64,000 bases of DNA from Armatimonadota bacterium (GTDB lineage Bacteria > Armatimonadota > UBA5829 > DSUL01), in assembly GCA_025998755.1 (NCBI GenBank), contig AP024674.1, positions 124,001 to 188,000 on the forward strand. Direction: 5' to 3'. This document shows, piece after piece, positions 48,305-60,640 of the stretch. Below the pieces are notes generated by a model, which was given only the letters and a program-made list of their open reading frames with translations, was not told the origin of the DNA and ran no database searches. The first letter of the stretch is position 1. Each line of letters opens with the position of its first letter. The translations under genes were made by a program, and so were the position numbers.

Positions 48305-49246
48305 TCAGGCTTTCTTGCGGCGCAGGAGACCTGCCATTCCAAAAAGTCCTGCGCTGAGAGCGGCCAGGCTGCCCGGTTCGGGCACCAGTTGAGTGATCCC
48401 GTAGGGGGCCGTCAGCCCGCCCGATCCGATCGGGATGAACGTGGTCTTGGCATACGGAAACACCGAGATGTCATAGTGCACGATCCCCGTGCTTCCAACC
48501 AGCAGGAAACTGGTGGGAATGGTCAGGTCCGGGATCAGCATACTGTTCATCCACTGGGGCACACCCTGCGTCTCCACGTAGGGCCCCGTCCAGTTGCCAT
48601 CAATATCCCAGCCAAGGAAATAGCCGGCATTTGCGCTATCGTTGCGAGCAGCCCGGATGGCTTCAGTGTTGCCTATCTTGACGATGGCCACACTGTTCAG
48701 GCGCGGATTCTGCACGACGCTGATCACGTTCTGCCTGTCAGAATCCCAACGAAGGATATGCCCGTTGCTCGCAACATACAGCCGATTCTGGCTGTCCAGG
48801 GCCATACCCATCGGTGTTGTCAGCGACTGGGAGCCGAGAGGCAGAACGCCAGATGTATCGTCCGGCTTGAAGTAATAAACTTTGTTCTGCTGGTTATCCG
48901 AAGCGTAGACAACTCCGTCGGCATCCACAATGGCCCCGCCGATCCAGCCCGTATTGGTGGCGTAAGTCTTGGTCAGATTGCCGTTGATGTCGAACCGGAG
49001 GAACTGGCTTGTGCCATTGGTGTAATAGGAGCCCACGTAGACATTCCCCATGGCATCGGCGTATACGGTTGTGGGCCGGTAGACGCTGGCGAAAACACCC
49101 ACGAAGTTCCCGGCGGAGTCGTAGCGCAGAACTTTGCTGCTGCCGTAGTCGGCCACCAGGAAGTCGTAAGCGGCATCTGCCGGAGTGCTCCCCAGCAAAG
49201 CAATGGCTCCGCAGATGGCCACAAGCAGCACTCTGAGTGTGCTCAT
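48305..49246 (-). CDS. Secreted beta-propeller (NHL-like) protein with PEP-CTERM sorting signal
   Basis: 313 residues with a signal peptide ending ADA. The propeller consists of blades such as LVADYGSSKVLRYDSAGNFVGVF and LTTPMGMALDSQNRLYVASNG. The C-terminus VPEPGSLAALSAGLFGMAGLLRRKKA is a PEP-CTERM signal: a PEP motif, a hydrophobic stretch and an Arg/Lys tail, processed by an exosortase. The blade GYFLGWDIDGNWTGPYVET is almost identical to the protein at 54106, so the two share a propeller but end differently. The ATG has GGAG 8 nt upstream. No exosortase gene is in the window. Ligand unknown. Confidence 0.9.
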   Translation of the reverse strand: MSTLRVLLVAICGAIALLGSTPADAAYDFLVADYGSSKVLRYDSAGNFVGVFASVYRPTTVYADAMGNVYVGSYYTNGTSQFLRFDINGNLTKTYATNTGWIGGAIVDADGVVYASDNQQNKVYYFKPDDTSGVLPLGSQSLTTPMGMALDSQNRLYVASNGHILRWDSDRQNVISVVQNPRLNSVAIVKIGNTEAIRAARNDSANAGYFLGWDIDGNWTGPYVETQGVPQWMNSMLIPDLTIPTSFLLVGSTGIVHYDISVFPYAKTTFIPIGSGGLTAPYGITQLVPEPGSLAALSAGLFGMAGLLRRKKA

Positions 49247-49476
49247 TTCCCTTTCTCCTTTTCTTTTTCGTCTCGTATGCCGTTTCTGAGTCAGAACACG
49301 GCGAGCCCTTGCGTTGGGCCCTCCGAAGGTTCTGTTCGAGCATTATTGCAGCGCGCAGCGGGACGCAGTTGCCGACGCGCAGCCTGTATGCAATTCAAGT
49401 CTAGGAGGACTCCCGAGACGCGGTCAACCGGCTTCCTGCCTTATCGGGACAAATGCCGCTTTTCCAAAGCTTCACG

Positions 49477-52458
49477 CTACGGCTGGAAACGGATCAAAAC
49501 GAAGCGCTCCGGCGGGATGGTGACCTGCAATACGTTGTTCGAGAGGGAGATGTTCGTATTCGTGAGCATATTCCGGACGGAGGGGTTGGGGAAGCCCTTC
49601 CAACGCAGACGCACCGTTGACGGTGCTCCTCCGTTAAAGCTCCTGAGGTTGGAGATCACCAGCAGGACGCGACCATTGCGCTCCCAGGTGGCGAAGACGT
49701 CCTCCCGTGCCGGTGCGGAGACCCATTCGAAGAAGGGATTTTCCCTCCAGCACGGTATGAAGTTGGCGCGCCGCACTCCGAAGCCTCGCAGCACGCCATA
49801 GATCTGCTTCACAACGTTCTGGTTCATATTCACCAGCCACGCTTGCGGCACGCCGTGAGGGAGGGCCCACGCGAAGGACATCCAGGTCTGTTTGTCGTCT
49901 GGCGGAGGATCGCCCGCCTCCGTAAGCAGTCCATTGAAAAGATAGTTGGGAACGCCGAAGGCCGTGGACAGGCAGCGGGCGCGGAACAGGTCGAGCCCCC
50001 AGCACTGAGCATAGCTGGCGGAGGTGTTCCCGTAGAGGCAACCATAGGGCTGCTCGCCCGTCAGCCATTCCGTGGCGAAGCCTATGATGGGAGGCACGAA
50101 CTCCCAGGTATGCACCCAGTAGTGGTAGCGTGGAAACCCCGGGCGCTCCGGAGCATCAAGCGGAGGAGTATACGGGCTGGTGACTGTGTCTTCCATCATC
50201 ATGGCGAACCTTTTCATCGCTTCCCGGCTCGCCAGCACGGGTACCGTGGGCTGGGTAACACCGTTGTCATCCACCCACCCGCACCCGTGATGCGAATTGC
50301 GGCAGTGGAACTGCCCTCCCAGCCACCCGTCGAAGTAGAATCCGTCCAGGGAATAGGTCTGCATGACGTTCCGCCAAGTGTGCGTCAGGAAGTCAATGTA
50401 GCTCGTTGCGGCAGAGCAGTCCGCATACTGCGGGATAGAATCCCACGTGAGCACGTCCTCGGGCAGCCTCTGCCATTCGAGGAAGAAGTCGCTGAAAGGC
50501 GTCATCGGCGGAGAGATCTTCTGCGGGCAGGAGGCCGGTCCCACGGCGGCCACTCCGCGGTCGTGATACATCCGCACCCGCTGGGTCAGCACCGTCGCGT
50601 TGAGGTGCTCCGGATCGTTCAGCCCCTGCATGATGTCCGTGTTCCATATCACCATCATGTCCATGTTGCCGGGCATGGCAAGCCAGGCCAGAGAGGAAGG
50701 CCAAGCGAACGCCCGGTCCGCCACCATGGAGTGATAGTCGGGAGGCAGGGGCTTGATGGGAGTGGCCTGGATTCCGAACTCGAAGCGCAGACCGTCCGCC
50801 GGCGTCTGAGACTCGATCAGGTTCATTCGGTAGACCGAAGCAGGCGAGCCGGGCACGAACGTGCAGAAGTTAGACAACGTTGCCGGCCTCCACTTTTCCA
50901 GGGAGGAGAATGTGAAGCCTATGCCCCGATCCTCGTTTCCAAACCAGTGGTAAAAGTTCGCCACCCATTCGTTCACCAGCCAGCCCAACTGTATGGGTGA
51001 CGTTCCGATGGCTCCGGCTCCCTCGGCTCCCGGACGGAAGGTCTGGTAAAGGCGCATCTGGGAAGCGCGCAGAGGAGCCTGTGCGCGCAGCCAGGTGAAT
51101 GTCACGTTCCGCTTAGGGTTGCTGATTCTGATCTCGAACCACAGGAAGCCATCGAAATCCGTCGTAATGCGGGCGGTGGCCTCCACGTCGCAGATGTCGC
51201 CAACGGCTTCTGCCACGGCACGGGCCGGGGTGTGGGAGAGAATCCGGAAGCTCTTGAGCCGGAATGTATGCGTCTCCGCTCCAATCCCTGCGGTCAGTGT
51301 CATCGCCGAGGCCAGAAGCTCTTCCCCGGAGCTGATGACGCTGTCCGGAAATATGCTCGTCCCCCAGGTCATAGTCCGGCCCCAGACGCTGATCTGCTTC
51401 TCCCCAGTGGTCACCGGCGTCCAAGGTTTTATGACCCGGTCAGGATCCACTCCTGTCCGGGAGGCGATCCACGGTGGCTCTTCCAGATGATTGAACGCCG
51501 CCTGTCCCTGAGCCAGCAGGACTCCCGCACGATAGGCGGAGGCCCTGCAGATGTAAGCGCCCCTAGGGAGCCCTGCGTATTCTATGCGGACGTCCCGAGG
51601 CTGGTTTGCCTGCATGGGCACCTCCCGGCTCAGGACCACGGCATTGTTCTGATCCAGAACCTCAAGTGTGCAAGAGATTGTCCCTGTGCCCAGTCCCGCA
51701 GGCAGCAGCCGGGCGATCAGATATTTCCGGGAGGGAACATTCAATGCTCGCACAGTCAGCCGGGCTGCTCCGGACTGGATCTCGAAGGAGAGGCGGTCCA
51801 CCTGGATGAAGTCCGCAGGCAGCCTGCATCGCTCCGCCGTCCATTCCAGACTTTGAAGCTGGCTCCACGAGGCGTTGGTCAGGGTGCCGCTGCCGGCGTC
51901 TTTGCGCCAGGATGTCCAGGGATCGCTCGTCGTGGTGGCGGCAGCGATGTCCATATCCACGACGTAAAGCGTCAAAGCGCCCGGACCGGTTGTGAACATC
52001 ACGAGATTGCGGTAGACGCTGCCGTTCGGGAAACGGGCGCGAAGGGTAACAGCGGAGACGCCGGATGAACCTTCCCCGTTGGCTTCGGCGCGCAGGTAGA
52101 ACCGCAGCGTGCTCCCTGATCCGGCTTCAGCCAGGCCGAAAGAACGCTCCAACTTGACTCCTCCGCCATTCACCCCCTGCCAGCCGTTCGCCTGGACGGC
52201 GTTTCCGGCCCAGGCATCCACCTTGGGCACGGACAGCGATGGGTTTCCCGCAGGAAGCGCCGACCAACCCGCCGCCGCAGCCTGCGCAGGAGTGTCGAAC
52301 TCCGTCCAGGCGTCAGGTGTCTGCGGGAAGGTCTGCGCGCGAACGGCGGCTGCCTCGCAGGTTAGAAGTACGGCAGTCAGTGCCGCTCTCAGGAGGACGG
52401 CGACGAGAACTCGGGACTGATTCGGTTGGAATCTGGGGCGGCTAAAGCTTTGAGGCAT
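49477..52458 (-). CDS. Large secreted glycoside-hydrolase-like protein
   Basis: About 993 residues with a signal peptide (LVAVLLRAALTAVLLTCEAAAVRA). Residues about 40-330 are beta-sandwich, concanavalin/CBM-like. The middle and C-terminal part look like a TIM barrel (about 580-880), including NMDMMVIWNTDIMQG, TYSLDGFYFDGWLGG (a candidate catalytic Asp region near residue 705) and GFATEWLTGEQPYG. A final beta-domain ends PPERFVLIRFQP. It resembles DUF6067/GH123-like proteins; this family call is moderate. ATG 52458 has AGGAG 9 nt upstream; ATG 52467 would overlap it. It faces the propeller operon and may act on the same polysaccharide-rich surface. Confidence 0.72.
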   Translation of the reverse strand: MPQSFSRPRFQPNQSRVLVAVLLRAALTAVLLTCEAAAVRAQTFPQTPDAWTEFDTPAQAAAAGWSALPAGNPSLSVPKVDAWAGNAVQANGWQGVNGGGVKLERSFGLAEAGSGSTLRFYLRAEANGEGSSGVSAVTLRARFPNGSVYRNLVMFTTGPGALTLYVVDMDIAAATTTSDPWTSWRKDAGSGTLTNASWSQLQSLEWTAERCRLPADFIQVDRLSFEIQSGAARLTVRALNVPSRKYLIARLLPAGLGTGTISCTLEVLDQNNAVVLSREVPMQANQPRDVRIEYAGLPRGAYICRASAYRAGVLLAQGQAAFNHLEEPPWIASRTGVDPDRVIKPWTPVTTGEKQISVWGRTMTWGTSIFPDSVISSGEELLASAMTLTAGIGAETHTFRLKSFRILSHTPARAVAEAVGDICDVEATARITTDFDGFLWFEIRISNPKRNVTFTWLRAQAPLRASQMRLYQTFRPGAEGAGAIGTSPIQLGWLVNEWVANFYHWFGNEDRGIGFTFSSLEKWRPATLSNFCTFVPGSPASVYRMNLIESQTPADGLRFEFGIQATPIKPLPPDYHSMVADRAFAWPSSLAWLAMPGNMDMMVIWNTDIMQGLNDPEHLNATVLTQRVRMYHDRGVAAVGPASCPQKISPPMTPFSDFFLEWQRLPEDVLTWDSIPQYADCSAATSYIDFLTHTWRNVMQTYSLDGFYFDGWLGGQFHCRNSHHGCGWVDDNGVTQPTVPVLASREAMKRFAMMMEDTVTSPYTPPLDAPERPGFPRYHYWVHTWEFVPPIIGFATEWLTGEQPYGCLYGNTSASYAQCWGLDLFRARCLSTAFGVPNYLFNGLLTEAGDPPPDDKQTWMSFAWALPHGVPQAWLVNMNQNVVKQIYGVLRGFGVRRANFIPCWRENPFFEWVSAPAREDVFATWERNGRVLLVISNLRSFNGGAPSTVRLRWKGFPNPSVRNMLTNTNISLSNNVLQVTIPPERFVLIRFQP

Positions 52459-52837
52459 CAGAAACATCTCCTGGCGGTCGGAGTCGGACACAGTAGGATT
52501 CGGAGCAGGAGCCCCGACTATCCGGCAATATCTTACCATTCCGTGCCTGTGGCTCCGCCGGGTTTGGAGCGCAAACCTTCGAAATTCGAGGCTAATCCCG
52601 ATTGTTAGAGCGCCCGAGCCAGCGGACGGCGATTCAAGAGCCGGTTTCGAAGACAAAGCATGGATTATCGTATTCACGCGGGCGTTGGCGTGCGGTATCT
52701 TTGAGTGTAGGGACCCGAGAGCCCCCGCTTGTCCGTCTGGGACTCCCGGCGTTGCGGCTTGAACAGCGGTGTTTCCGCGCCCGGGTGCCTGGCAACAACT
52801 GCCAATAGACCGCATGAGTGCGAAAGGAGGAGACGAC
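52459..52837. other. Divergent intergenic region between hydrolase-like gene and propeller operon
   Basis: 379 bp without a supportable gene. It must hold promoters for both directions, but I see only weak candidates (for example TAAGAT on the minus strand near 52533). A strong AAAGGAGGAG ribosome site precedes the plus-strand start. No repeats or RNA fold recognised. Confidence 0.45.
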
Positions 52838-54040
52838 ATGCGCTTGCTCTGGCGAATGCCCGTTTTGCTGGCGCTGGTGATGACAATGCTCCAGCTCGGG
52901 GTTCCCGCTATGGCCGACGGCCCGTACGAACTGCTGGTGGTCAGCTCCAACAACAGAGTGCTCCGCTTCGATCCGGACGGGCGGTATCGTGGGGTTTTCA
53001 CAGCGGATCCCGGGCTGATCGGTCCGCTGGGCATTGCAGTCGGGCCGGATGGGAAGGTCTACGTCAGCGCCGAAAGCTCTGGACGGGCGTCGGTCCGGCG
53101 GTATTCCAGCGACGGGACTTTCGAGCGAGAGTACTACACTTTTTCCCTGTCGAGCCCCTTCGGCGTGGCCCTGGATGCGGCGAACAACCTTTATGTCAGC
53201 AGCTACAGCGGCGACGAGGTTGTGCGCTGGCTCGCCAGTGGCGCCTACGACGGGACGTTTGCGTCAAGTGGCGGGATGGACGGCCCGGCGGGGATCTGCT
53301 TCGATTCGCAGGGCCGCCTGTATGTGGCCTGTGACATGTACGGCCAGGATCCTCCAGTCAAGGGGCGTGTGCTCAAGTTCGGACCCACCGGAGCCTTCGA
53401 ATCGCAAATCCTGATGGACAATCTTTATGTCTATCCCAGCGATGTTGCGGTGGATTCGGCGGGGGATGTCTATGTCCTGGTTACTATCGGAAAACCCAAT
53501 AACGCTGTCATCCGTTACGGTCCGGACGGATCCAACAAAGCCTATTACGCCTTCCCTGCCATCAACGCGCCTATCGGCATCGCTCTGCATCCTGACACCA
53601 ATCAAGTCTACGTAACCGGCGAGGAAGGGGTTTATCGTTGGGACCAGACGTCGGGCCAGCAACTGGTGGTGGCCAGCGGACAGTCCGGCCTGTCGCGGCC
53701 GATGGACATCGCCTTCCGCCCGCTTCAGCCGGCTGCCGGCAATACCATCACTTATCAAGGCAAACTGACCAATCCGCAAGGGCAGGCCGTCGAGGACGGG
53801 ACCTATACGCTTGTGGTGCGGTTCTACCAGGAACAAGAAGGGGGCACGCCCCTCTGGCAGTCCCTGGCCGTCAGTGTCCAGGTGAAGCAAGGCCTGTTCA
53901 CGGCCAGATTTTCCAAGGTTCCCGCTGATGTCTTTTCGGCGCGCAACGTGTGGATGGAAACTGAAGTCAACGGAGAGACCATCACGCCGCGGCGCTACAT
54001 CGGTTCGGTGCCTTTGTCCATAAGGGCTCCTGGAAACTGA
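52838..54040 (+). CDS. Secreted beta-propeller protein with C-terminal YQG/SVP beta-sandwich domain
   Basis: 400 residues with a signal peptide ending AMA. Residues about 28-295 form an NHL-like propeller: LLVVSSNNRVLRFDPDGRYRGVF, SSPFGVALDAANNLYVSSYSG and GPAGICFDSQGRLYVACD. Residues about 300-400 are a short domain starting NTITYQGKLTNPQG, with EDGTYTLVVRFYQ, GGTPLWQ, VWMETEVNGETITPR and ending near SVPLSIRA. This domain is widespread in surface and tail-fibre-like proteins ending in SVPYAFxA. ATG 52838 has AAAGGAGGAG upstream. First gene of an operon of three; paralogue of 54106, 56440, 58119 and 48305. Confidence 0.87.
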   Translation: MRLLWRMPVLLALVMTMLQLGVPAMADGPYELLVVSSNNRVLRFDPDGRYRGVFTADPGLIGPLGIAVGPDGKVYVSAESSGRASVRRYSSDGTFEREYYTFSLSSPFGVALDAANNLYVSSYSGDEVVRWLASGAYDGTFASSGGMDGPAGICFDSQGRLYVACDMYGQDPPVKGRVLKFGPTGAFESQILMDNLYVYPSDVAVDSAGDVYVLVTIGKPNNAVIRYGPDGSNKAYYAFPAINAPIGIALHPDTNQVYVTGEEGVYRWDQTSGQQLVVASGQSGLSRPMDIAFRPLQPAAGNTITYQGKLTNPQGQAVEDGTYTLVVRFYQEQEGGTPLWQSLAVSVQVKQGLFTARFSKVPADVFSARNVWMETEVNGETITPRRYIGSVPLSIRAPGN

Positions 54041-54105
54041 TGAGACATCAGGAGTCAGGTCTGGTGCATCTGTCAGACAAAGATATGGGAAGGAGAGATC
54101 AGAAT

Positions 54106-55317
54106 ATGCGACATTGGAAGCGAGCGCAGTTGCTGCTCATTTTGGCGGCGTTCTTCATGGCCGCAGTCATCTTTGCGGGGTCGCCGGCGGTGGCGGACTA
54201 CCTTGTCCTGAGCTACGGAACGGACAGGGTGCTCCGCTTCGGGGACGACGGGACCTACAAAGGGGTCTTTGCGGGCCCGGACCAGAACATCACGAAGCCG
54301 ACCGCCATAGCGCGCAGATCCGACGGCAAGATCTATGTAGCTTGCTACGTCACCCAGATCACAAGCTACATTGTCAGACTGAGCGCAACGGGAGAGTATG
54401 AGGCCCACGTCGGCACCGGCGACTATGGATTCATAGGCGGACTCATTTTCGACCAGGCGGGAAACCTGTACATCAGCGACTCAAGCGCCTGGTGGGTGAA
54501 CAAGCTGACGCCGGATGGCGTGCAGACGGTGCTGAACTCGGGATCGGAGTCTACGCCTTCACCGGCGGGCTTGGCCTTCGACGCCCAGGGCAGGCTGTAT
54601 GTGGCCTGCGGCGGCGGGAACGGGAAGATCCTTCGCTGGAATGCGGATGGCACTTTTGACCGCAAATTGCTGGACAATCCGAGGCTCGTTGATGTCACGA
54701 TTGTCACCCTGGACGGCGGTGCACAGGCCATCCGTGCTCTGCGCGCTGACGGTGCCGAATATGGTTATTTTCTCGGATGGGATATCGAGGGGAACTGGAC
54801 CGGCCCCTATGTGACGACGGAGAGTTCTCCCCAGTGGGTCAACAGCCTGTGGCAGATAGACTCGAAAAACTTCCTGATCGTCGGTTATAACGGCATCTAC
54901 CGCTACGAGTTCACAGATCAGGGTCCGGTGAAGACCCTCTGGACCGGTTTGATTGCCGGCTTGCTCAGCAGTCCGTACGGCATCGCCTGGGTTCCCGACG
55001 AGGTCGGCTCGGCGAACACTCTGAACTATCAGGGGAAGCTGGCGGACAGCTCCGGCAACCCGGTGCCGGATGGCCAGCATAGTCTGATCTTTGCGTTCTT
55101 CACCGCGGAGACCGGCGGAAGTGCCGTCTGGACCTCGGCGCCAGTCAGCGTGACCACCAAGGGCGGACTGTTCACAGCCACCATTCCCGGCGTACCGCCG
55201 GCGCTATTCGACGCAAAGGATGTCTGGCTCCAGGTGACCGTGAACGGCGAGACCCTTTCGCCGCGCATCTACGTGAGCTCTGTGCCGCTGGCAATGAAAG
55301 CCCTGAAGGCGCTCTGA
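54106..55317 (+). CDS. Secreted beta-propeller protein with C-terminal YQG/SVP beta-sandwich domain
   Basis: 403 residues with a signal peptide (LLLILAAFFMAAVIFAGSPAVA). The propeller covers about 26-300, with GYFLGWDIEGNWTGPYVTT, the blade shared with the PEP-CTERM protein at 48305. The terminal domain starts NTLNYQGKLADSSGNPVPDG and ends LSPRIYVSSVPLAMKALKAL. ATG 54106 has GGAAGGAGAG upstream; the open frame reaches back to 54040 but the earlier part has no ribosome site. Same operon as 52838 and 55339. Confidence 0.87.
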   Translation: MRHWKRAQLLLILAAFFMAAVIFAGSPAVADYLVLSYGTDRVLRFGDDGTYKGVFAGPDQNITKPTAIARRSDGKIYVACYVTQITSYIVRLSATGEYEAHVGTGDYGFIGGLIFDQAGNLYISDSSAWWVNKLTPDGVQTVLNSGSESTPSPAGLAFDAQGRLYVACGGGNGKILRWNADGTFDRKLLDNPRLVDVTIVTLDGGAQAIRALRADGAEYGYFLGWDIEGNWTGPYVTTESSPQWVNSLWQIDSKNFLIVGYNGIYRYEFTDQGPVKTLWTGLIAGLLSSPYGIAWVPDEVGSANTLNYQGKLADSSGNPVPDGQHSLIFAFFTAETGGSAVWTSAPVSVTTKGGLFTATIPGVPPALFDAKDVWLQVTVNGETLSPRIYVSSVPLAMKALKAL

Positions 55318-55338
55318 GACCGGAAAGGAGGATCTGCC

Positions 55339-56214
55339 ATGACTGTCTGGAAAGCAGTCCGGTCCGCAGCCACCATGCTGTCAGCCGTTCTGGTGGCAGC
55401 GGCGCCGTCCGTTGGCGGCCAGTTCGCCATCGACTGGGCGGTGTTGAGCGGGGGAGGCGGCGAGATGTCGTCGGCATCCTACCGGCTGAACGGCTCCCTC
55501 GGCCAGGGTTTCGCAGGCTATGCCTCCAGCGCCAGCTATCAGCACTGGGCTGGATTCTGGGTTGAACCGGGCAGCATTGCGCCTCCCCAACCCGTGGTGG
55601 TCCAAAACCTGGAGCAGGCCAAGGTGCTGGCGGATGGAACCCACGTTCAGGTGAACCGGCTTGTGGCCACAACCTGGGCAGGGGCCTTCGGCAGTAATAC
55701 CTTGGCCTACCTGGAGCAGGAGGACCGGGCGAGCGGCATCCGGGTGGTTCTTGCATCGCCCGCCGGCTGGCTTGGTGAAGGAGCGCGTGTCAGCGTGACG
55801 GGTGTGATGTCAACCACTCCGGATCAGGAGCGCCAGATCTCATCCGCCGCATTGACGCTGTTGTCTGCCGGCGCGCCGCTAGAACCGCTCAGAATGACCA
55901 ACAGGGCTCTCGGCGGTGGCGATCTCGGTGTCCCACCGCTCGGTCAGGCCGGTGTCACGGGAGGCCACGGCGTGAATAACGTGGGTCTCCTGGTGGTGGT
56001 CTGGGGAACCGTGGTCAACGATCCTTCTGCAGGCTACACCCTGTTGGATGATGGATCCGGCACGCCGGTGCGGGTCGAAACGGGTCATCTGGCCGTCCTC
56101 TGGTCGCAGGGCGACTATCTGAAAGTCACGGGGCTCAGCAGCCTGCGGAAGAACGGCGAGATTCTGGAACGGCTCATCATTCCCAGGTCCAACGCTGACG
56201 TCTCGGGAATCTAG
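55339..56214 (+). CDS. Secreted protein with GQ/GFW beta-domain and double OB-like fold
   Basis: 291 residues with a signal peptide (LSAVLVAAAPSVGGQ). Residues about 30-80 contain SSASYRLNGSLGQGFAG...HWAGFW, a small beta-domain seen in many environmental surface proteins. Two OB-like units follow: LVATTWAGAF...YLEQEDRASGIRV...GARVSVTGVM and VNNVGLLVVVWGTVV...LDDGSG...LKVTGLSSL. It ends IPRSNADVSGI. GGAAAGGAGG lies before the ATG. Paralogue of the protein at 59795; the OB part also occurs in the beta-helix protein at 4862. Third gene of its operon, followed by a terminator. Function unknown; possibly a partner of the propellers. Confidence 0.8.
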   Translation: MTVWKAVRSAATMLSAVLVAAAPSVGGQFAIDWAVLSGGGGEMSSASYRLNGSLGQGFAGYASSASYQHWAGFWVEPGSIAPPQPVVVQNLEQAKVLADGTHVQVNRLVATTWAGAFGSNTLAYLEQEDRASGIRVVLASPAGWLGEGARVSVTGVMSTTPDQERQISSAALTLLSAGAPLEPLRMTNRALGGGDLGVPPLGQAGVTGGHGVNNVGLLVVVWGTVVNDPSAGYTLLDDGSGTPVRVETGHLAVLWSQGDYLKVTGLSSLRKNGEILERLIIPRSNADVSGI

Positions 56215-56248
56215 AAGGGTTCTGGACTTCCTTCGGGATTGCAGGGGC

Positions 56249-56285
56249 GGGCCCGTCCTGCGGGGCGGGCCCCTTGTTTGTCTTT
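56249..56285 (+). terminator. Intrinsic terminator ending the first propeller operon
   Basis: 10-bp stem (56249-56258 with 56263-56272, one G-U pair), loop TGCG, tail CTTGTTTGTCTTT. It lies 35 bp after the stop of 55339. A second T7 run at 56309-56315 follows a weaker stem. Confidence 0.8.
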
Positions 56286-56439
56286 CCTGCAGCAATGCTT
56301 CGAGCGTTTTTTTGCGGGAAAGCATGCTCAATCCGATTCTCCGCTCCAAAAGGGGTGCGGTATCCTGAAATTGGTGGGTTTCAAGCGCGCGAAGCGCTGC
56401 GAGGGCCTTCTTCTCTCGAATGCAACCGCGGAGACGGAT

Positions 56440-58119
56440 ATGCGACGGATCTTGATTTCTCTTGCAACAGGCCTGGTGTGCCTTGCCATCTGCGCATCTT
56501 CTGCCGCCCAGAACCTGCTTGTTAACAGCTTCGGCAGCGACCAGACCCTGCGATTCGATGTCCATGGCATCTATCAGGGCGTCTTCGCTTCCGGTCAGGG
56601 GCTGGATGATCCGTCCTGCATCTGCGTGGGGCCGGACGGGACGGTGTTCATCGGGGTGAAGGATGCTCAGGGACAGGGTAAGGTGCAGAAACGCTCCGCC
56701 ACGGGCGCGCTGCTTGCGGAATTTTCCGCTCCGGGCCTCTCGACGGTTGGTGGCGTCGCGCTCGATGCGGCTGGGAACCTGTTTGTCAGCGACACCGCTG
56801 CCCACCGGGTTCTCCGATGGAATGCCGCAGGGAGCTTTCAAGGCGTCTTTGCAGCCGGCAATGGGCTCAGCCGTCCGCTGGGTCTGGCCGTGGATGGCCA
56901 AGGAAGGTTGCTCGTCGCTTCTGCAGATTCCGGAGAGATCTTGAGGTGGAACGCGGGCGGCTCTTTCGACGGGGTGTTTGCGTCTGTGGCCTCACCTGTG
57001 GATGTGGAGTGCGGCTCTGACGGAAGAGTCTACGTTCTCCACGGCTCCGGTGGCGGAGGGGTGCTGGAACTGTACTCGGACGGGTCCGTCCGCTGCGCAA
57101 GGTCTGGGGGGGTGAGCACGTCTTCTCCGACGGGTCTGGCTCTCCGTCCGGGAGATGAGGCGCTTTTCGTGACGGACGCGCAGAAAGGGGTCCTGTTCTG
57201 GGAAAACTCCAGCGGGTGGCATCTGCTTGTTTCCCAGGGACAGAGTGGACTGCAAGGAGCACGGGGCCTCGCGTTCCAGACCGCAGCCGCCCTTTCCCGG
57301 AACTCGATCAACTATCAGGGCTTTCTTGCAGATTCCACCGGTGCGCCGCTGCCGGACGGCCAGTACAGCGTGACTTTCGCTCTGTATTCTTCCCATGAGG
57401 GCGGGCAGCCGCTGTGGGTCTCAGCTCCCCAGACGGTGACAACTGTATCCGGGGTGTTCACCACGCTTATTCCCGGCGTTCCGGAAACGCTGTTCGAATC
57501 CTCGGACGTGTGGCTCGAGGTGCGCGCCGGATCTGTCGTTATGGCTCCGCGCCAGAGGTTCTCCGCTGTGCCCTATGCTTTCCACGCCCGGTACGCCTCT
57601 GCTCTTGCGACGGAGAGCGCTCCGATCATCTGTTCCATTGGGAATGTCACCGCGCTTCGCCTCGGCGCGGACTCCAGCTTCTGGGCGCGGGCGAGCGGCG
57701 GCGCCACGTTTGTGACCGGCTTCGACGAAAACGGACTGCCGGCATCCGGTGTCACATTGGCTCCTGGAAGCGGATCGTGGTCCTCTCTCAGCGACCGCGC
57801 CGCCAAGACAGACTTTCAAACGGCGGATCCGGAGGAAATCCTGCAGAAAATCCGGGAACTGCCCGTGGGTTACTGGAGCTACAGGACTCAAGATCCGGGC
57901 ATCCGTCACATTGGTCCGACTGCTCAGGATTTCCGGTCGGCGTTCGGGGTGGGAGAGGATGACAGGCATATCAGCACGGTGGATGCGGATGGCGTGATCC
58001 TGGCGGCAATTCAGGGATTGCTCCGAAGGGTCGAGCAAAATGATTCCCGCATCCGTGATCTGGAGCGCCGCCTGCGCGGACTGGCGCAGGCGACTGCGCT
58101 GGGAGCGGAGGGGCGGTAA
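56440..58119 (+). CDS. Secreted beta-propeller, YQG/SVP domain and S74-type intramolecular chaperone
   Basis: 559 residues with a signal peptide ending SSAAQ. The propeller covers about 24-285 (LLVNSFGSDQTLRFDVHGIYQGVF, SRPLGLAVDGQGRLLVASADSG). The YQG/SVP domain runs about 288-385 (NSINYQGFLADSTG to SAVPYAFHARYAS). A beta-rich spacer follows, then a peptidase S74 endosialidase-type chaperone domain from about 447: LSDRAAKTDFQTADPEEILQKIRELP, WSYRTQDPGIRHIGPTAQDF and VDADGVILAAIQGLLRRVE. The S74 hallmark Ser451-Asp452 and Lys456 are intact, so trimerisation-linked self-cleavage before the chaperone is plausible. GGAG lies 6 nt before the ATG. Stop overlaps the next start (TAATG). Confidence 0.87.
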   Translation: MRRILISLATGLVCLAICASSAAQNLLVNSFGSDQTLRFDVHGIYQGVFASGQGLDDPSCICVGPDGTVFIGVKDAQGQGKVQKRSATGALLAEFSAPGLSTVGGVALDAAGNLFVSDTAAHRVLRWNAAGSFQGVFAAGNGLSRPLGLAVDGQGRLLVASADSGEILRWNAGGSFDGVFASVASPVDVECGSDGRVYVLHGSGGGGVLELYSDGSVRCARSGGVSTSSPTGLALRPGDEALFVTDAQKGVLFWENSSGWHLLVSQGQSGLQGARGLAFQTAAALSRNSINYQGFLADSTGAPLPDGQYSVTFALYSSHEGGQPLWVSAPQTVTTVSGVFTTLIPGVPETLFESSDVWLEVRAGSVVMAPRQRFSAVPYAFHARYASALATESAPIICSIGNVTALRLGADSSFWARASGGATFVTGFDENGLPASGVTLAPGSGSWSSLSDRAAKTDFQTADPEEILQKIRELPVGYWSYRTQDPGIRHIGPTAQDFRSAFGVGEDDRHISTVDADGVILAAIQGLLRRVEQNDSRIRDLERRLRGLAQATALGAEGR

Positions 58120-59798
58120 TGGCCATCATGGCGCGGTTCCTGACGGCACTGCTCCTTCTGCTGGCAAGCACGCTGGTCCCGGCGGGATGTCAGGAGATGC
58201 TCGTCGCCAGCCGCGGCAGCGACCGCATCCTGAGGTTTGATGCCGAGGGCAACTATGCCGGAGTGTTTGCCTCGGGAGCGCTTGCGCCTTCTCCCTCCTG
58301 TCTGGCGGTCGGCCCGGACGGGAGGCTGTATGCCGGAGTGCGCGAGTCATCGGGGCTGCGGGGGGTGGCCTGCTGGGATCGTGGAGGGGCATACCGGTTC
58401 CGGTTGACGGCTACCGGGCTTGGTGACCTGTCGGGAGTGGCCGTTGACGCATCAGGAAACGTCTACGCCAGCTCGACCGGTGACGTGGTCCGCTGGAATC
58501 AGGACCGGTCGTTCTTCGGCACTTTCTCTTACGGTAGCGGCCTGGCGGAGCCTGCCGGTCTGGTCTTTTCCGCGGACGGCAAGCTCTTCATTGCCAGCGC
58601 CGGCAGCGGACAGGTGCTGATATGGAACGCGGACGGCACTTTCAACCGCGTGTTCCGGTCGTTCGGGGCCAGTGCCCGGCCTTTGGACGTTGCCCTGTCC
58701 CATGATGGCTCTGTCTACGTTCTGCTCCGTCTGAGCGGAGGACAGACAGGGGTTGGCGTTTACAGCTCCAGCGGATCATTTGTCCGTTTTCATTCCGGCG
58801 GGGCGTTGATGCCCTCGCCGACAGGGCTTGCACTGCGCCCTTCAGATGACGCGGTGTTCGTCACCGACTCCACCACCGGTCTCTTGCGGCTGGGCGCGGA
58901 TGGGTTGTTCCGGGTGGTGGTTCCCGCGGGTGCCCATGGGCTTTCGCAGGCATCGGCTGTGCGTTTCCGGACGGATCTCCAGGTGTCGGATAACTCTCTT
59001 CTGGTACAGGGGCTGCTTTCGACGGCTGACGGCAATCCTGTTCCAGACGGCGTTTATCAGCTCAGATTCCGGTTCTACGCCCAACCTTCAGGCGGCGGTG
59101 TGCTCTGGTCGTCCCCGGATCTTCCGACTCAGACCCAGTCAGGGGTGTTCATGGCGAGACTGGAACAGGTCCCCGCCAGCGTGTTTGTTCGCGGATCGGT
59201 CTGGATGGAAACTGTGCTGGGCGGAGTGACTCTCTCTCCGCGGCAGCTGCTGGGGGCGCAGGGGCTCGCCATCCGAACAGCCTCTGCGGCCGGCCTTCGG
59301 ACTGCATCGGGAGGGGTGGCCACCTTTCGCGCAGGCAGCCGCCCGGCGCTGACGATGACTGCCGATGCTTCCTTCACGGCGGTCGCGTCCGGCGGCGCGC
59401 TTTTCGCCACGGCTTTCGACTCAGCAGGCCAAGCCTCGGCGGGTCCACGGTTGGCTCCGGGGGCGGGCGCGTGGTCCACGCTTTCCGATGCGTCTCTCAA
59501 AGTGTGGCACGGCGCGGTTGAGCCGGAGGACATCCTGTCTCGCCTCCAAAATCTTCCTGTCTTCTTCTGGAGATACCGGACCCAGGGGACAGGGACTCTT
59601 CATATCGGTCCAATGGCGCATGACTTTCACTCGGTTTTCGGGGTAGGTGAGATGCCTGGAGCCATCTCGACGGTTGATCCCGACGGCGTGGCAATGGCGG
59701 CAGTGCAGGGCTTGTTGCGAAGGATCGAGCAACAGGAGACGACCATCCGGCGCCTTGAGGAGCAGATCAGGCGCACGCAGGAGAGGGCAGCGCGATGA
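58119..59798 (+). CDS. Secreted beta-propeller, YQG/SVP-like domain and S74-type intramolecular chaperone
   Basis: 559 residues, same length and order as its upstream neighbour, a tandem paralogue. The signal peptide ends VPAGC and may be a lipoprotein signal, though the -3 Pro is unusual. The propeller covers about 27-290 (LVASRGSDRILRFDAEGNYAGVF). The YQG/SVP-like domain is diverged (SLLVQGLLSTADGNPVPDG). The S74 domain has LSDASLKVWHGAVEPEDILSRLQNLP, FWRYRTQGTGTLHIGPMAHDF and VDPDGVAMAAVQGLLRRIEQ, with Ser456-Asp457 and Lys461. A C-terminal coiled coil follows. ATG overlaps the previous TAA; the stop overlaps the next ATG (ATGA). The pair could form homo- or hetero-trimers. Confidence 0.86.
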   Translation: MAIMARFLTALLLLLASTLVPAGCQEMLVASRGSDRILRFDAEGNYAGVFASGALAPSPSCLAVGPDGRLYAGVRESSGLRGVACWDRGGAYRFRLTATGLGDLSGVAVDASGNVYASSTGDVVRWNQDRSFFGTFSYGSGLAEPAGLVFSADGKLFIASAGSGQVLIWNADGTFNRVFRSFGASARPLDVALSHDGSVYVLLRLSGGQTGVGVYSSSGSFVRFHSGGALMPSPTGLALRPSDDAVFVTDSTTGLLRLGADGLFRVVVPAGAHGLSQASAVRFRTDLQVSDNSLLVQGLLSTADGNPVPDGVYQLRFRFYAQPSGGGVLWSSPDLPTQTQSGVFMARLEQVPASVFVRGSVWMETVLGGVTLSPRQLLGAQGLAIRTASAAGLRTASGGVATFRAGSRPALTMTADASFTAVASGGALFATAFDSAGQASAGPRLAPGAGAWSTLSDASLKVWHGAVEPEDILSRLQNLPVFFWRYRTQGTGTLHIGPMAHDFHSVFGVGEMPGAISTVDPDGVAMAAVQGLLRRIEQQETTIRRLEEQIRRTQERAAR

Positions 59799-60640
59799 GA
59801 TCCCTTCTGACACCAGCCTTGCTAATGCTCGCGATCGCCGTTCCCTGTTTTGCTCAGGGAGTCACTCTCCAGCGGCTGGTCGTTCCTGCGGTGGCGGGTG
59901 TTGCATCCACCTCTGATGTTGCTCTGCAGGCCACAGGGGGCCAGCCCGTGGCGGGGCGGGTTCAGGCTGTCGGCGTGCGGCACTGGATCGGTTTCTGGCT
60001 TCCGGACTCAGTTGGGCACCCCCCCTTGTTGCCAGATAGCCTTGCCCTCGCGAAGCTTTTGCCGGACGGGGCCAGAGTTTCGCTGACCGGCCTCGTCGCC
60101 ACAACCGGTCTGCTGCAACCCGGTGGATTCTTCTATGTCGGCCGTCCGGACCGGGCGAGTGGCATCCGCATCCTGCCCCTCACCGACGCCAAGAACATCG
60201 TCCCCGGCACGTTGCTGTCCGTTATCGGGACTATGGAAACCACCGCCGATGGGGAACGGCAGATCTCCGCGGCATTGCTTTCGGTGCTTGGTTTTCGGGA
60301 TCCTCTTGAACCTCTTGCAATAGCGGGCCGGCATCTTGGCGGCGGGGCTTTCGGAGAGGCTCCCTGGTTTCAACCCGGAGCGGGCGCTGCGGTGGGTGTC
60401 AACAATGTCGGACTGTTTGCCCGCACGTGGGGAACGGTAACCGGTTGGGAGGGCCGGATGCTGAGGCTGGAAGATGCCTCAGGTGTGACCGTCGCAATAA
60501 TGCTGGACAATGCTCCGGCGGACCCTGCCCCGGGCTCTCTTCTGGAAGTCAAAGGTCCGGTCAGTCTCTACCGCGCCGGGCAGCAAGTGCGGGCTCTGTT
60601 GATTCCACGCTCGCCTGCGGATGTACGGCCGCTGAACTAG
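59795..60640 (+). CDS. Secreted protein with GQ/GFW beta-domain and double OB-like fold
   Basis: 281 residues with a signal peptide (LLMLAIAVPCFAQ). VALQATGGQPVAG...HWIGFWLPD matches the small beta-domain of the protein at 55339. Two OB-like units follow: VSLTGLVATTG, FYVGRPDRASGIRILPL, SVIGTMETTADGERQI, then VNNVGLFARTWGTVTG and LEVKGPVSLY, ending IPRSPADVRPLN. It is a clear paralogue of 55339 and, like it, the last gene of a propeller operon. It converges with the symporter gene; the stops overlap by 4 bp. Confidence 0.8.
   Translation: MRSLLTPALLMLAIAVPCFAQGVTLQRLVVPAVAGVASTSDVALQATGGQPVAGRVQAVGVRHWIGFWLPDSVGHPPLLPDSLALAKLLPDGARVSLTGLVATTGLLQPGGFFYVGRPDRASGIRILPLTDAKNIVPGTLLSVIGTMETTADGERQISAALLSVLGFRDPLEPLAIAGRHLGGGAFGEAPWFQPGAGAAVGVNNVGLFARTWGTVTGWEGRMLRLEDASGVTVAIMLDNAPADPAPGSLLEVKGPVSLYRAGQQVRALLIPRSPADVRPLN

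Follow-up and report, generated by a model that had tools for sequence, protein, structure and literature searches.

The described systems closest to this locus each share some of its parts. The mosaic adhesive trimers (MAT) of Bdellovibrio (NF053851; PMC10769870) are secreted and carry a beta-sandwich base domain straight after the signal peptide, followed by a long trimeric fibre with a variable C-terminal tip; some of them end in an S74 domain with an SDxxxK motif, and modules swap within the family. In one member, Bd3182, this motif self-cleaves, and a Ser-to-Ala substitution abolishes cleavage (PMC10769870). The same paper reports no PDB homologue for the MAT N-domain and states that the surface structure to which the base domain attaches has yet to be found (PMC10769870). 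ScyF-type proteins (NF035926; PMC4870267) join an NHL propeller to a PEP-CTERM tail, and PEP-CTERM proteins in general have been tied to exopolysaccharide (Haft et al.; PMC1569441). The S74 (ICA) chaperones of phage endosialidases and tail fibres and of MYRF have a serine and a lysine five residues apart, preceded by a short Gly-rich stalk; the Ser/Lys dyad is conserved at the same spacing in MYRF, and cleavage in the endosialidases and MYRF is thought to depend on trimerisation (PMC3742443). The six-blade NHL fold is also found in PknD, in TRIM/Brat proteins and in the designed Pizza proteins.

The cluster described here lies in a window of 64,000 nucleotides (the whole stretch of DNA analysed) on a single 3.29-Mb contig that is 98.95% complete. 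Four of its secreted proteins have a sandwich related to the MAT base domain and two of these end in S74, but all four carry a propeller in front of the sandwich and lack a long fibre, and in the other two the sandwich is the C-terminus. The protein resembling ScyF (P0001) has no scytonemin cluster beside it, and its paralogues carry the sandwich without PEP-CTERM. Unlike the phage and MYRF chaperones, the S74 proteins of the locus are cellular, secreted and joined to a propeller and a sandwich, with no depolymerase or long beta-helix, and the likeness of the heads to PknD, TRIM/Brat and Pizza is one of fold only, the domain partners being different. We read the locus as a conserved surface-display cluster (adhesin or binding) of one bacterial family, in which one scaffold would meet three C-terminal fates, and give this reading a probability of about 0.6. 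The earlier note knew of no described system combining such parts; this is too broad, as propeller plus PEP-CTERM (ScyF) and base domain plus S74 (MAT) have each been described, but the propeller joined to the base domain, the same combination with S74, and the conserved cluster as a whole were not found described in the literature searched, and this looks like a new arrangement.

Layout of the cluster

The features are given below by position in the window; signal peptides were judged by eye, and SAND denotes the MAT_N-like beta-sandwich. Comparisons are with one genome of the same genus (G001), one of another genus (G003) and one of a third genus (G002).

48305..49246, minus strand: PEP (P0001); signal peptide, NHL propeller, PEP-CTERM tail; orthologues in G001, G002 and G003
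48311..48385, minus strand: PEP-CTERM signal of PEP, VPEP...LLRRKKA; TIGR02595 25-29.7 bits against a cut-off of 16
49477..52458, minus strand: GH123_N-like secreted protein (P0008); PF19543 44.4 bits against a cut-off of 22; start codon uncertain
52640..52706, plus strand: promoter/operator-like element 1, AAAGCATG-N4-ATC-N2-ATTC ... TGCGGTATC
52838..54040, plus strand: NS1 (P0002); signal peptide, NHL propeller, SAND
53741..54037, plus strand: SAND of NS1
54106..55317, plus strand: NS2 (P0003); signal peptide, NHL propeller, SAND
55015..55314, plus strand: SAND of NS2
55339..56214, plus strand: OB1 (P0006); secreted, OB-like units, Pfam support for the domain identity being weak
56249..56272, plus strand: terminator-like hairpin between the half-operons
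56304..56371, plus strand: promoter/operator-like element 2
56440..58119, plus strand: S74a (P0004); signal peptide, NHL propeller, SAND, short stalk, S74
57301..57600, plus strand: SAND of S74a
57790..57945, plus strand: S74 domain of S74a; predicted nucleophile Ser451 at 57790-57792, with Lys456
58119..59798, plus strand: S74b (P0005); signal peptide, NHL propeller, SAND, short stalk, S74; one-base overlap with S74a
58992..59288, plus strand: SAND of S74b
59484..59639, plus strand: S74 domain of S74b; predicted nucleophile Ser456, with Lys461
59795..60640, plus strand: OB2 (P0007); secreted OB-fold paralogue of OB1; four-base overlap with S74b

The five propeller genes first noted at 48305, 52838, 54106, 56440 and 58119 are all present at those positions, but the cluster is larger than was seen at first, since it also contains OB1 and OB2, the GH123-like gene and the two copies of a promoter-like element, none of which had been noted. 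PEP and the GH123_N-like gene occupy the minus strand, followed on the plus strand by NS1, NS2 and OB1 and then by S74a, S74b and OB2; the GH123_N-like gene precedes PEP on their common strand and points away from the plus-strand operon, and a symporter-like gene and then an AraC-type regulator gene lie downstream of the cluster. The domain calls of the earlier note were confirmed by profile searches. NHL repeats (PF01436) score above the cut-off in all five proteins (21.4-47.9 bits against 20), PEP-CTERM is found on the first protein only (Pfam 21.1 against 20.7; TIGR02595 25 against 16), the YQG/SVP sandwich is present on NS1, NS2, S74a and S74b and absent from PEP, and S74 is restricted to S74a and S74b, both by the Peptidase_S74 profile and by an intact Ser-Asp-x3-Lys motif. 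The idea that different tails would lead to different sorting or assembly is supported by the exosortases encoded in the genome, the intact Ser/Lys pair of S74 and the similarity of the sandwich to a fibre base domain.

PEP has an apparent signal peptide, read by eye as MSTLRVLLVAICGAIALLGSTPADA, and ends in a C-terminal PEP motif, a hydrophobic helix and a basic tail, these three C-terminal features being kept in G001 and G003. Because the genome has three exosortase genes (PF09721 above the cut-off) and about 46 PEP-CTERM proteins, PEP is predicted to be an ordinary exosortase substrate in its own genome.

The propeller heads

The heads are clearly related to each other. In pairwise phmmer comparisons, the best pairs are S74a-S74b (187 bits), PEP-NS2 (182 bits) and NS1-S74a (144 bits), against at most 82 bits for the NHL proteins compared from elsewhere than the locus, and 15 heads from three genomes form a single clade with respect to the sampled outgroups (support 88/99). 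The alignment and tree proposed in the earlier note thus find kinship beyond chance, though similarity between the groups {PEP, NS2} and {NS1, S74a, S74b} is just 35-91 bits, and NS1 scores no better against the PEP and NS2 heads than against NHL-PEP-CTERM proteins elsewhere in the phylum. Within the clade, the tree resolves five groups of orthologues; four have starred support and the NS2 group has 81/89. PEP and NS2 are sister groups, as are S74a and S74b.

The heads had been described as recent paralogues, and this does not hold: the five orthologous groups are common to the genera, and a second genus has the same set in the same order. Orthologous heads from another genus are 61-73% identical and paralogues 22-46%, so the duplications are older than the genus split and the heads are old paralogues. 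The blade GYFLGWDI-GNWTGPYV, singled out as a sign of recent duplication, is indeed nearly identical in PEP and NS2, but the orthologues compared keep it too, and constraint explains its conservation better than recency does. Two NHL-like repeat genes outside the window, at about 202-206 kb and 235-238 kb of contig C1 of G000 (L028-L033), lie about 33 kb apart with 99% DNA identity, and are built of numerous internal repeat units, each of about 126 bp, that resemble one another.

The model of S74a contains a 24-strand propeller (pLDDT about 90 across most of residues 30-280) with PDB matches to NHL domains and a six-blade fold; its stalk and S74 domain are of low confidence, mostly below 60, and this monomer model is informative for the propeller only. 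In the alignment of the five heads, the invariant residues are mostly Gly, Pro and hydrophobic, together with one Arg, one Asp and one Ser; His, Glu, Lys and Cys are not among them. Because the five share no invariant His, Glu, Lys or Cys, unlike a conserved enzyme, the propeller is favoured as a probable binding scaffold rather than as one shared enzyme.

The propellers could also be secreted enzymes (a lactonase, a lyase or a ScyE-like protein), or accessories of a polysaccharide pathway acting with the GH123-like gene and the symporter, their tails fixing no more than location. This is suggested by the matches of the heads to SGL, Vgb_lyase and ScyE-family models, ScyE being required for scytonemin production (PMC4870267), and by the neighbourhood, in which the GH123-like gene is conserved and, in G001 and G003, the next genes encode a sodium/solute-symporter-like protein and an AraC-type regulator. 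However, Vgb_lyase, ScyE (71.5 bits or less against 80) and ScyF (36.7 against 350; both NCBIfam) fall below their cut-offs and SGL passes on NS1 only, these models scoring a generic propeller, and the mostly Gly, Pro and hydrophobic character of the invariant residues also argues against catalysis. We consider this explanation unlikely, although a pathway role of the heads beside the GH123-like gene is possible. The GH123_N-like protein itself is 73-87% identical in G001, G002 and G003, and a polysaccharide may be the ligand or substrate, given the conserved position of this gene between PEP and the operon.

The sandwich domain and its candidate OB-fold partners

SAND is a beta-sandwich of about 96 residues, present in four copies at the locus. 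All 13 SAND proteins tested, NS2 included, matched NF053851 (MAT_N; best E 1.7e-9), the proteins of the window at 22 bits or less, below the curated cut-off of 60 bits; they also differ from MAT proteins in the position of the base domain and in having no long beta-helix fibre. On these matches SAND is a distant relative of the Bdellovibrio base domain. Modelled alone, SAND of NS2 is a predicted beta-sandwich (pLDDT 85.5), and no significant PDB match to SAND was found among solved structures, which agrees with the report on the MAT N-domain. Elsewhere in the class and phylum, the signal peptide leads straight into SAND, and a stalk, a phage tail-collar domain or an S74 domain comes after it; in this family, a propeller of about 265 residues stands between signal peptide and SAND in 12 of 12 copies. 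Propeller and SAND occur in one protein in this family only, among 291 genomes of the phylum with the best six candidates per genome scored, and NHL heads outside the family have PEP-CTERM or dockerin-like tails. At L074:5021-6925, SAND is joined to phage tail-collar domains in two adjacent secreted proteins. Another tail type in the phylum was read by eye at L082, L083, L085, L089 (family f8) and L096, where NHL propellers of broadly the same type have dockerin-like C-termini; in f8, the dockerin-like C-terminus comes after a further beta-rich domain.

OB1 and OB2 are 38% identical. There are 59 OB-like matches in the genome, mostly within large proteins, and the best match outside the locus (251 bits; the next has 109) adjoins the only other SAND gene of the genome. 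In other genomes, strong OB matches share a contig with a nearby SAND gene in G003 (C58), G017 (C6 and C151), G018 and G024, but have no SAND gene close by in G010, G012, G022 and two further cases in G003. About six of 11 strong OB matches outside the locus are within about 4 kb of a SAND gene, where position alone would give an estimated 1%, roughly, for each; SAND and the OB-fold proteins probably work together. Secreted OB-fold proteins linked to SAND genes are seen across the class, for example at L075:5591-6475.

The S74 domain and the question of phage origin

Peptidase_S74 matches S74a at 36.9-41.5 bits and S74b at 19.9 bits in hmmscan and 24.5 bits in the genome search, against a cut-off of 22. 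The Ser-Asp-x3-Lys motif is invariant in all six S74 proteins from three genomes, and no significant solved relative of the S74 tail was found. About 60 residues separate SAND from the predicted cleavage site, a stretch with no counterpart in NS1 and NS2; cleavage of S74a at Ser451 would leave propeller and SAND with a short stalk.

As S74 is found in phage fibres, the cluster might be a domesticated phage tail-fibre or injection-system cassette, with S74 and SAND derived from phage and the propeller serving as the receptor-binding part of a particle. At E<=1e-3, the S74 domain of P0004 matches 23 phage records, those listed being 35-42% identical across 12-17% of the protein, and a phage tail-collar domain is found on other SAND proteins of the class. 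Against this, no phage record among the matches listed covers the propeller or SAND, the S74 tail has no match in the viral contigs scanned, and the best viral fold match for SAND reaches an E of just 1.5e-3; each of the proteins carries an apparent signal peptide, and the neighbouring genes are metabolic. We find this explanation very improbable, and a phage origin of the whole proteins is unsupported by the phage-record and viral-contig searches. Spread by plasmids was also considered and set aside, the matches being at the level of NHL only.

Regulation and conservation

When the DNA preceding NS1 was aligned with that preceding S74a, a common 67-bp sequence emerged, of which a pattern search found exactly two copies in the 3.29-Mb genome, one before each half-operon. 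The element is retained in three other genomes, and a sequence model built from seven sites recovers all seven in the four genomes (E 1e-12 to 1e-15), with two strong matches in the own genome (E about 1e-15); the same model gave no further copies in the family genomes, the next candidates having an E of 0.2 or worse. A GC-rich terminator-like hairpin, which also folds in G001 and G003, lies just upstream of the second copy. With a shared element before each half-operon and a hairpin before the second, the two half-operons have the look of transcription units that run in parallel and would answer to a single regulator. An RNA element or riboswitch was rejected (no Rfam match at the gathering score, no consensus structure), and sigma-70 promoter predictions were not above those for shuffled sequences.

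The same set of genes was sought in related genomes, as the earlier note had proposed. The full set is present in G001, in the same order, and in G003, in the same order on two contigs with a break inside OB1, whereas G002 has the left half, its contig ending inside NS1; no SAND gene was found in the G002 assembly (94% complete), in which the contig of the locus ends there. All eight genes have a dN/dS of 0.06-0.20 between the own genome and G001, which indicates purifying selection.

These data bear on the suggestion that the proteins are unconnected paralogues, generic secreted NHL proteins that acquired common tails by shuffling and have no joint function. The sandwich tree groups SAND of NS2 with that of S74a and SAND of NS1 with that of S74b, with moderate support, in conflict with the head tree, and an exchange of SAND among neighbouring genes is possible; such shuffling would also fit the PEP-CTERM or dockerin-like tails of NHL heads elsewhere in the phylum. 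However, gene order is strictly kept across genera, the genes overlap and are under purifying selection, and the regulatory element is exclusive to the two half-operons, all of which makes an absence of joint function quite unlikely.

A possible mode of action and its meaning

Under the surface-display reading, one ancestral NHL six-blade propeller would have multiplied by local duplication, its copies being combined with three kinds of C-terminus. PEP would be exported by the Sec pathway and processed by an exosortase, reaching the outer surface or the exopolysaccharide. In NS1 and NS2, SAND may attach the protein to a surface partner that both have in common, for which the OB-fold proteins of the cluster are candidates. 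In S74a and S74b, S74 would drive trimerisation of the short stalk and then cleave itself at Ser451 (Ser456 in S74b), and its self-removal would leave trimers of propeller and SAND. The half-operons, each made up of two heads and an OB gene behind the shared locus-specific element, would be expressed together. A more elaborate version, which we regard as doubtful, is a dedicated, co-regulated array in which the propeller family would exist at once in three states (exosortase-sorted monomer, base-docked subunit and self-cleaved trimer) on a shared SAND-OB platform at the surface, and in which heads with SAND but no S74 may join the trimers that S74 forms.

The locus extends the MAT-type base domain of Bdellovibrio to a distant phylum, and the SAND-linked OB-fold protein is a candidate partner for this domain. 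For the family itself, the cluster would provide a natural comparison, in which the binding scaffold remains within one family and the tail varies, so that the effects of exosortase sorting, base-domain docking and S74 trimerisation on display may be directly compared.
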